Shown here piece after piece: positions 12,715-16,430 of a DNA stretch of 64,000 nt; position 1 is the stretch's first letter; every line of letters starts with the position of its first letter. Source of the stretch: Pseudomonas hygromyciniae (GTDB lineage Bacteria > Pseudomonadota > Gammaproteobacteria > Pseudomonadales > Pseudomonadaceae); NCBI RefSeq assembly GCF_016925675.1, contig NZ_CP070506.1, positions 5,144,501 to 5,208,500 of the forward strand, in the 5' to 3' direction. The position numbers were made by a program, and so were the translations under genes. The notes beneath the pieces were generated by a model, which saw nothing but the letters and a program-made list of their open reading frames with translations, was not told the origin of the DNA and did no database searches.

Positions 12715-13194
12715 ATGAGCAAACTTGACCGATACGACCTGAGTATTTTGGCGGAATTACAGCGCGACGCGAGGATCTCCAACCAGGAGTTGGCCGAGCG
12801 GATCGGCCTGTCGCCGTCACCCTGCTCGCGCCGGGTCAAGCAATTGGAAGACGACGGCTACATCTCACGCCAAGTCGCCCTGCTCGACCGCAAGATGCTC
12901 GGCCTAAGCCTTACAGCCTACGTATTGATCGGCATGGACCGACACACCCCCGAGCGTTTCGAGAACTTCGAAGCAGCCATCCGCACCTTGCCGCAGGTGC
13001 TGGAATGCAGCCTGGTCACCGGGATGGATGCCGACTATCAGCTGAAAGTGGTGGTGCCGGATATGGATCACTATCAAAAACTGCTGCTGGGCCACCTGAC
13101 CCGGATTGAAGGGGTGACCAGCGTGCGCTCAAGCTTTGTGCTCAACCAGGTGCTTAACAGCACGGAGTTGCCGTTGACTCACCTGCGTACCTAA
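12715..13194 (+). CDS. Lrp/AsnC-family transcriptional regulator
   Basis: This is a 159-residue leucine-responsive-type regulator. The HTH domain (MSKLDRYDLSILAELQRDAR, ISNQELAERIGLSPSPCSRR) precedes a RAM domain containing LVTGMDADYQLKVVVPDMDH. SPSPCSRRVKQLE is the recognition helix typical of the Lrp/BkdR group, so it is more Lrp-like than the regulator at 2610. It probably binds an amino acid and regulates amino-acid metabolism. In PAO1 memory-based synteny it is PA3965. No partner gene is adjacent; downstream lies a repeat-filled gap. Confidence 0.9.
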   Translation: MSKLDRYDLSILAELQRDARISNQELAERIGLSPSPCSRRVKQLEDDGYISRQVALLDRKMLGLSLTAYVLIGMDRHTPERFENFEAAIRTLPQVLECSLVTGMDADYQLKVVVPDMDHYQKLLLGHLTRIEGVTSVRSSFVLNQVLNSTELPLTHLRT

Positions 13195-13213
13195 GACTCA
13201 CCATCGAACCCAT

Positions 13214-13541
13214 GTGGGAGCTGGCTTGCCTGCGATAGCGGTGTTTCAGCCGCTGATAGGCCAGCTGACAGTCCGCTATCGCAGCATAGGTATCTACACA
13301 ACTTTGCCGCAACGCCTAAATCCAGGCAGATAGCGCAGTTGTGGCGAGCGGGCTTGCCCCGCGCTGGGCTGCGAAGCAGCCCCAATAAGCCGAATGCGTT
13401 GTACCAGATACACCGCAGCGGCTGGTTTTGGGGCTGCTTCGCAGCCCAGCGCGAGGGCAAGCCCGCTCGCCACAGGGGAGTTCGTCAGTTTCTGAAAGTT
13501 GTGTAGATACTTATGGCTATCGCAGGCAAGCCAGCGCCTAC
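13214..13541. repeat. REPIN interrupted by a MITE-like element
   Basis: A complete left REP (GTGGGAGCTGGCTTGCCTGC at 13214) and a palindromic spacer run to CCGCTATCGCAG at 13284. The right REP resumes at 13516 (GCTATCGCAGGCAAGCCAGC) and ends at about 13541. The 231 bp between are a separate palindromic element listed on its own. The 458-base gap between genes here holds nothing else that I can see. Confidence 0.85.
13285..13515. mobile_element. MITE-like palindromic element, copy 1 (231 bp)
   Basis: The ends are terminal inverted repeats, CATAGGTATCTACACAACTT on the left and, read on the minus strand, CATAAGTATCTACACAACTT on the right. The 10-bp sequence GCTATCGCAG is repeated directly on both sides (13275-13284 and 13516-13525), as expected of a target-site duplication. 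Inside are a second inverted pair (about 13341-13385 and 13429-13473) with REP-like GTGGCGAGCGGGCTTGCCCC and CTGGGCTGCGAAGCAGCCCC arms. No ORF is present, so it must be moved by a transposase elsewhere in the genome. Confidence 0.8.
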
Positions 13542-13653
13542 ATTTTGGGCGTGCTCAGGCAGTGACACCTGGGTGCGACGCACCGACGCAGGTCAACGTT
13601 GCACCTGCCTCATTGCCTTATACTTCGCGCCTGCCTTTGTCGGAAACTGCCCA

Positions 13654-13872
13654 ATGAATTCGATTGACCCCGTGCTGTTTGAAGAGTGGATGATGACCGG
13701 ACTGGTCACAATCCTGATCATTTTCATGGGCTTTATCGTCTGGGACCTGGCGAAGAAATCCAAAGCCGGGCGCTTTGGCTCGATGATTCTGTTCTTCGTG
13801 CTGGGCCTGGGCGTGGCCGCGTTTATCATCAAGAGCGTGGTGATCGGCCTGATCGAATCCGGGGCTTTATAA
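13654..13872 (+). CDS. DUF2788 small membrane protein
   Basis: This 72-residue inner-membrane protein has two hydrophobic spans ([20 protein letters not shown] and [20 protein letters not shown]) separated by a short basic loop, as in the DUF2788 family of pseudomonads. Function is unknown. The ATG at 13654 is chosen because the open frame upstream is repeat DNA and the family starts with MNSIDP-like residues. Its last 6 bases overlap the 3' end of the convergent rluE gene. Confidence 0.85.
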
Positions 13873-16167: not shown

Positions 16168-16430
16168 GTGGGAGCTGGCTTGCCTGCGATGGCCATAGGT
16201 ATCTACACAACTTCAGAAACTGACGCCCCCGTGGCGAGCGGGCTTGCCCCACGCTGGGCTGCGAAGCAGCCCTAAACCCTGCCATCGCGGTTTATCTGAA
16301 GAAACGCGGCGGGCTTTTTGGGGCTGCTTCGCAGCCCAGCGCGGGGCAAGCCCGCTCGCCACAGGGGAGCTCATCAGTGTCTGACAGTTGTGTAGATACC
16401 TATGGCCATCGCAGGCAAATCAGCCCCTAC
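16168..16430. repeat. REPIN split by a second MITE-like element
   Basis: The left REP (GTGGGAGCTGGCTTGCCTGC, from 16168) and the right REP (GCAGGCAAATCAGCCCCTAC, to 16430) sit at the outer ends. The interior is the 211-bp element below. The 375-base gap between amn and aidB holds only these repeats. Confidence 0.85.
16194..16404. mobile_element. MITE-like palindromic element, copy 2 (211 bp)
   Basis: Left end CATAGGTATCTACACAACTT and right end AGTTGTGTAGATACCTATG are inverted repeats, the same termini as at 13285-13515. The two copies share the CAGAAACTGACG-like stretch next to the termini and the internal GTGGCGAGCGGGCTTGCCCC / CTGGGCTGCGAAGCAGCCC arms. The central loop of about 45 bases is different. 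Insertion is in the loop of a REPIN, and here no clear target duplication is visible because the flanks GATGGC and GCCATC are themselves inverted. Confidence 0.8.

Follow-up and report, generated by a model that had tools for sequence, protein, structure and literature searches.

A palindromic MITE-like element of Pseudomonas with IS4-type ends, found mostly in the tails of REP sequences

Overview

We describe here an imperfectly palindromic element of 231 bp from Pseudomonas hygromyciniae, one of a family of intergenic elements which share their ends, are commonly flanked by 10-bp direct duplications, and show a preference for one place in the REP sequence. Many copies are present in this genome and the family is spread patchily over the genus; the site of the element is element-free in one relative, and ends like its own bound IS4-type insertion sequences (ISs) in other genera. 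We consider it likely that the element is a non-autonomous MITE moved by an IS4-type transposase, mostly into REP tails, the mobilisation in trans being the part of this explanation that we infer. The DNA analysed, referred to below as the window, is a stretch of 64,000 nucleotides of contig NZ_CP070506.1; the named proteins nearest to one encoded in it include a P. protegens protein at 96% identity, which is in keeping with a Pseudomonas genome.

The element is a palindrome inserted in a REPIN

A reading of the window from its letters alone (the sequence-only reading) had proposed a 231-bp element at 13285-13515 with inverted ends of about 20 bp, and these limits proved exact to the base. Judged by its ends, fold and copies, this MITE-like element is an imperfect palindrome over its whole sequence. 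It is bounded by a left terminal inverted repeat, CATAGGTATCTACACAACTTT (13285-13305, plus strand), and a right one, CATAAGTATCTACACAACTTT (13495-13515, minus strand), both recognised by repeat pairing and by the genome end pattern; the terminal arms are 21 nt each and pair at 20 of 21 positions (95% complementary). The 10-base sequence GCTATCGCAG, claimed to lie on both sides, was indeed seen as a direct 10-mer at 13275-13284 and again at 13516-13525, and we regard these as the left and right copies of a target-site duplication. The nested REP-like arms that had been proposed were also recovered, by inverted-repeat pairing, as two sets within an inner core at 13340-13474: the outer arms (13340-13359 and 13455-13474) are 20 nt long and 100% complementary, the inner ones (13357-13385 and 13428-13456) 29 nt long and 97% complementary. 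It is this core which explains the strong folding of the element, -101.7 kcal/mol as DNA (z -16.9) and -166.9 kcal/mol as RNA (z -17.1); none of 200 shuffled sequences folded as well, be it as DNA or as RNA.

The proposed insertion into a REPIN agrees with the flanks. The left REP of the interrupted REPIN (13212-13239, plus strand) pairs with the right one (13516-13543, minus strand), whose tail is the insertion place, over 28 nt at 93%, so that taking away the element together with one 10-mer leaves a REPIN-like pair; a REPIN without interruption is present at this site in a relative, G032, described below.

A gene frame ends at 13194 on one side of the element, and on the other side a frame with its start read near 13654 ends at 13872. 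The statement that the element has no ORF stood insofar as there is no closed ATG frame of at least 90 aa inside the 231 bp, but two open frames overlap it. One is an 89-aa frame on the minus strand (13191-13460) which covers most of the element, and the other (13513-13872, plus strand) begins at an ATG in the right end of the element, in frame with the downstream gene. As the latter frame reads into that gene (start near 13654), the annotated N-terminus may be wrong. No promoter- or terminator-like site was found at 13150-13700, and the three Rfam matches to the element were all far under gathering scores.

One relative carries an element-free site

The window holds a second copy, recognised by end pattern and flank reading, of 211 bp at 16194-16404. 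It has no direct duplication and lies between inverted REP tails, CTGCGATGGC on its left (16184-16193, plus strand) and GCCATCGCAG on its right (16405-16414, minus strand), the right tail being the exact reverse complement of the left one. In 57 genomes we searched for the 2.4 kb that separate the two insertion places, and fetched 30 loci, one of them from the own genome. Where the interval was measurable, the 13-base core of the ends (at most 1 mismatch) was present in 0 of 24 relatives at site 1 (that of the 231-bp element) and in 0 of 19 at site 2, most of these loci being too divergent to read.

An empty site in a sister strain, as the sequence-only reading had advised to look for, was found in G032, the closest relative (93% identity), in which site 1 is occupied by an uninterrupted REPIN with a single 10-mer, GCTATCACAG; the base-by-base reading of the element-free state refers to this one site in this one relative. 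At site 2, G032 has a collapsed REP. Its genome contains no exact copy of the ends, and no match to the element at E 1e-10 among the best 40 of 102 candidates scored. As a separate observation, the REPIN loop at site 1 of G032 (L170) is roughly the reverse complement of the window loop, as if it had been flipped between the REP arms.

The element belongs to a family of many copies

With at most 2 mismatches, the end pattern occurs at 53+49 sites in the 6.29-Mb genome, the reversed pattern at 0+0. We listed 100 of these 102 end sites and fetched 331 kb around sites and BLAST matches, in which 106 ends with at most 5 mismatches formed 43 facing pairs and left 20 unpaired; one of the unpaired ends was later paired by reading its right end, which gives 44 elements and 19 unpaired ends. 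There are, therefore, at least 44 two-ended elements of 117-875 bp in the own genome, a lower bound because elements whose ends match less well escape if they lie beyond the 331 kb fetched, and a number that leaves out both the 19 unpaired ends and BLAST places without ends (e.g. 818391 and 3847570). BLAST of the element against its own genome, in which the best 40 of 328 candidate places were scored, missed the second window copy, and some of the copies scored are 97-99% identical.

Six elements of 117-143 bp have a core reduced to about 20-45 bp, and therefore the core seems not to be needed for spread. Two others reach 829 and 875 bp. Elements of 829-996 bp bounded by these ends (L071, 2027-2901; L095, G000:C1 5554558-5555386; L138, 578-1518; L160, 523-1518) contain a different repeat (GTACATATCCGTT... 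or near variants), its halves inverted around a REPIN-like middle, and this other repeat is a candidate for some relation to R200, a known intergenic repeat of P. fluorescens SBW25. One frame of L071 has no Pfam match, and the frames of at least 110 aa at five own-genome loci with unpaired or far-apart ends include none recognised as a transposase by eye.

Duplications of 10 bp mark insertion into REP tails

An exact 10-bp direct duplication flanks 23 of the 44 own-genome elements, and 30 of 44 have one within 1 mismatch. Because the target is itself repeated, flanks were swapped between elements as a control, which gave exact duplications in 62/1892 pairs and duplications within 1 mismatch in 179/1892. 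At other lengths from 4 to 15, exact duplications were limited to one at 4 and one at 9. The sequence-only reading had asked whether the genome copies share ends and duplications; the ends are consistent, and the duplications are as just given.

The left-copy 10-mers of the 30 elements fit CYGCGATRRS, the tail of a REP, exactly in 25 cases, are off at one position in 4, and in 1 are unrelated (ATGGGGAAGG). When the element and one copy are removed, a REP (at most 5/22 mismatches) is restored in 23 of 30, a count that stands without a control. Orientation relative to the REP is mixed (7, 6, 6 and 5 among 24 typable of 43 elements). The window has 19 places that fit the 10-mer, both duplication copies included, and 12 of them are in REP context.

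The 14 elements of 44 without a direct duplication within 1 mismatch comprise 2 with two mismatches, 1 with an exact 9-bp duplication, 6 with exactly inverted flanks and 5 with none recognised. Exactly inverted flanks, found in 6/44 elements versus 63/1892 swapped pairs, could stem from two insertions, one into each REP of a single REPIN, and a later recombination event between the two elements.

The ends recur in other Pseudomonas genomes around varied cargo

Among 398 genomes of the genus, the exact end pattern CATNRGTATCTACACAAC was present in 46 (the own genome included), with a patchy distribution and up to 47+53 sites in one genome, and its reversed control in none; an end variant finishing in ATC was present in 22. 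From 51 loci of other genomes (L138-L167 and L199-L219) we obtained 26 distinct elements after single-ended loci and repeats had been dropped. Exact 10-bp duplications flank 10 of these 26, duplications within 1 mismatch 14, and exactly inverted flanks were seen in 1, compared with 3/650 exact and 20/650 within 1 mismatch after swapping. Consistent ends and 10-bp duplications, the lack of which in other genomes would have spoken against the sequence-only reading, were seen in these copies as well. By eye, some elements or ends (L142, L163, L210 and L217) lie not in REPs but in CCC..GGG-type palindromes.

The cargo between the ends varies widely among these elements. A closed ATG frame of at least 90 aa was found in 3 of 70 elements (44 from the own genome and 26 from others), and none of the three matches Pfam at E 0.001. 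At L151, a left end is followed by the repeat, which is broken up by frames that encode HTH_Tnp_1 and rve domains, and no right end was seen; apparently another IS has inserted there.

Similar ends bound IS4-type insertion sequences of other genera

Comparison of the element with plasmids gave matches at E >=0.2, among which one in Methylotuvimicrobium alone was useful. On this plasmid (L127), facing ends surround an interrupted IS4-type element with an 8-bp duplication, and one end is identical to the right end of our element over 18 bases. A short end query led to Acinetobacter plasmids, in which four complete ISs of 1366-1370 bp (L128, L131, L132 and L133) match at 17/18 positions at each end and have duplications of 9, 10, 9 and 9 bp, respectively; the targets of L131-L133 are, by eye, also palindromes. 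A 41-nt query against plasmids gave matches at E >=2, among which the Acinetobacter IS of L128 came up once more. The element had no match in phages, and the matches there of a 30-nt end query (E >=0.05) were taken as chance.

Related ends (2-3 mismatches) with 9-bp duplications were found in Citrobacter (L265) and Aeromonas (L266), which share one transposase (40.6% identical to that of L128) at two different places. In Arsenophonus (L267) and a viral contig (L264) the ends are present and no duplication was seen; as their flanks are alike, they probably represent one insertion. A Sulfurovum relative (L134, 36% identity) has an end variant on both sides, again with no duplication seen. The misses were L129 with one end only, L135 (a partial gene) with none, and L130 with one end beside an IS3-type gene, and the ends were not found in two distant IS4 controls, L268 and L269 (about 25% identity). 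The YREK spacing (Y295, R298, E302, K309) is the same in all 20 relatives that were aligned, a minority of which had their ends read, and NCBIfam IS4 models match these transposases under their cut-offs. The NCBIfam model NF011312, named for FlhF, also matches them over its positions 432-767 (E 3e-32, 1e-23 and 2e-21), and this part of it looks like IS sequence inside the model.

Within the IS4 family, the IS4Sa subgroup is described as having ends of the form CA------T and duplications of 8-10 bp (PMC2266710). The element begins with CA, has a T as its ninth base (CATAGGTAT) and a duplication of 10 bp, and the end patterns of ISH8 and IS231 as listed in that paper fit it less well. The assignment to IS4Sa is a putative one, a fit by ends only.

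Search for a partner transposase in Pseudomonas

The Methylotuvimicrobium transposase as a query found nothing in 149 genomes of the genus, and the Acinetobacter one nothing in 398, judged by the best candidates (at most 4 per genome) in the rows listed. A 20-row alignment searched over the order matched in 33 of 390 genomes, none of them from the genus or the family (best candidates, at most 4 per genome); since a strong relative was picked up in this search (G468, E 2e-73), the method can detect such genes. The same alignment gave weak matches, with E up to 0.1, in 3 of the 46 end-carrying genomes, and the genes concerned (in G296, G066 and G337) were rejected as partners, none having these ends. 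One match at E 2e-4, among 149 genomes, came from a further partner search in the genus, with no ends near it.

The gene in G296 belongs to an IS4-family IS (NF033592, above cut-off) whose own ends differ, so that resident IS4 enzymes exist which do not share the ends of the element; a CATAGG-like string in this IS was discarded as an end, since it lies inside the gene. G296 has four IS4-family copies with these other ends (CCAGCCCTTTCAAGGTC; L259, L261, L262 and L263), all, by eye, in a long intergenic repeat. A transposase with the same terminal repeats, which had been named as something to search for, was thus found in other genera but in none of the Pseudomonas genomes searched. Loss or absence of the partner is compatible with a MITE and does not exclude one.

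A proposed mechanism and its alternatives

That the element is a non-autonomous transposon, as first suggested from its sequence, is in keeping with the consistent ends and 10-bp duplications in its own genome and in others, and with the one element-free site. A plausible course of events would be as follows. The ends, about 18-21 bp long, would be recognised by an IS4-family DDE transposase supplied in trans, which would pair them and excise the element, presumably by the cut-and-paste transposition that has been described for the IS4 family (PMC2266710). Insertion would proceed by a 10-bp staggered cut, mostly at CYGCGATRRS in a REP tail and in either orientation, and repair of the gaps would duplicate the 10 bp. 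What lies between the ends may be interchangeable, mostly palindromic and non-coding cargo, in the present case the REP-like core. The enzyme might have been present in these bacteria only transiently, or it might come from a lineage missed by the searches. Several findings speak against this explanation: the ISs have mostly 9-bp duplications versus the 10 bp of the elements, the Pseudomonas genomes searched yielded no transposase of the clade, 14 of the 44 elements have no direct duplication within 1 mismatch, L134, L264 and L267 have the ends with no duplication seen, and the IS4-family IS of G296 has other ends.

A bolder version, which we regard as speculative and rather unlikely, is that the ends are a free-standing vehicle in Pseudomonas which, with no transposase resident there, brings many unrelated, mostly palindromic, non-coding cargoes (REP-like cores, and palindromes of 0.8-1 kb made of other repeats) into REP hairpins. 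The palindromic nature of the cargo and the inverted flanks would then arise because an IS4-type enzyme, acquired only transiently, inserts the elements into REPIN hairpins that have been extruded. If true, the two mobile systems would form a nested hierarchy, each acting for the other as target and as cargo.

The IS4 connection itself might be misleading if a transposase of another kind, resident in Pseudomonas, moves the element and the likeness to IS4-type ends is old or accidental. The failure of the searches in Pseudomonas genomes to find a transposase of this clade, though some copies are 97-99% identical, would suit this idea. We nevertheless think it improbable, as the ends of the element and those of ISs from other genera are alike at 17-18 of 18 positions, the two distant IS4 controls lack the ends, and IS4 typically makes duplications about as long as one turn of the helix (PMC2266710).

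Still less probable, in our opinion, is that the element is a passenger of REPINs, spread by RAYT (the tyrosine transposase of REPs) or by REPIN copying, its ends being merely part of a larger hairpin. The REP-like arms of the core and the location in a REPIN would fit such an origin, as would the observation that degenerate REP units, linked to other stem-loops, flank a RAYT gene of P. putida and one of P. fluorescens, hundreds of such structures being present in these genomes (PMC3733652). Against it, the ends are kept while the cores vary or shrink, and similar ends flank DDE transposase genes elsewhere. Moreover, the elements have 10-bp direct duplications, which are not expected from IS200/IS605-like enzymes. 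For the same reason a RAYT-mobilised REPIN, that is two inverted REPs around a loop with no target duplication, was rejected as an identity for the element in spite of its REP-like arms.

Recombination between REPs, rather than transposition, could account for the exactly inverted flanks without direct duplication (6/44 versus 63/1892 swapped), yet as an explanation of how the copies were placed it is highly improbable given direct duplications within 1 mismatch in 30/44 versus 179/1892 and the element-free site in G032. We give almost no credence to the element being a natural mini-Mu that has the ends of a Mu-like transposable phage. This idea arose because the ends are found next to Mu-like phage genes in L106 (on one contig with L109) and where contig L103 stops, past its tail genes. 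In the alignment of 9 left ends the phage starts at TGTGGGGAGG, which in L109 is 51 bp within the repeat, and no such end occurs at the other 17 of 18 phage loci; a Mu-like origin is refuted for the left ends read, the phage sitting in the repeat. Apart from this, the DNA outside TGTGGGGAGG resembles, by eye, these intergenic repeats at 9 of 9 left ends (L109, L110, L112, L115-L119 and L126), which suggests that Mu-like phages have an insertion preference for them.

If the element is a MITE moved by an IS4-type enzyme, as we favour, then one family of intergenic palindromes of Pseudomonas owes its spread to transposition into REPs with a 10-bp duplication, and REPs provide a non-autonomous element with landing sites between genes. 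Its ends are linked to a known transposase family, which makes mobilisation in trans directly testable, and the patchy, high-copy distribution (46/398 genomes) marks the lineages in which the missing enzyme may be sought.

Comparison with known systems

No report of the element was found by title or start of abstract, subscription papers and supplements lying outside that search, and neither GTATCTACACAAC nor its complement was found in the open full-text literature searched. Mobile insertion cassettes with IS231 ends, which are moved in trans, have in common with the element that they are non-autonomous and have IS4-family ends; in Bacillus they carry genes, whereas the element is non-coding, palindromic and REP-specific. 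The element shares with IS4Sa the CA------T ends and a duplication within 8-10 bp, but it has no transposase gene, while the ISs with like ends carry YREK (PMC2266710).

Several ISs insert at one place in REPs, namely ISPsy8, ISPa11, ISPpu9, ISPpu10, ISRm22 and ISRm19, with duplications of 3 bp for ISPsy8, none for ISPa11, 2 bp for both ISPpu9 and ISPpu10, and 6 bp for ISRm22 (PMC1525189), and IS481 of SBW25 also targets REPs (PMC11708052). The use of one REP place is common to these ISs and the element; they carry transposases, however, and the element has a 10-bp duplication and no gene. ISRm22 is of particular relevance, being both REP-specific (PMC1525189) and placed in IS4Sa (PMC2266710).

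REPINs share the REP-like arms and serve as the target, but the part of their description that was consulted mentions neither a 10-bp duplication nor IS4-type ends; according to the same source, single REPs might arise when DNA is inserted into a REPIN (PMC3116915). The intergenic repeats R0, R2, R178 (101 bp) and R200 (320 bp) of P. fluorescens SBW25 come from the same genus as the element, and R0 and R2 have been suggested to be MITEs (PMC2718517); that R178 or R200 may be related to the element was a suggestion of the sequence-only reading. The TIMEs of Pseudomonas are likewise non-autonomous with inverted ends, but derive from Tn3 (PMC4133298). MITEs, IS4-family ends and REP targeting are therefore each known singly, and what is new, in our view, is their combination in one high-copy family.
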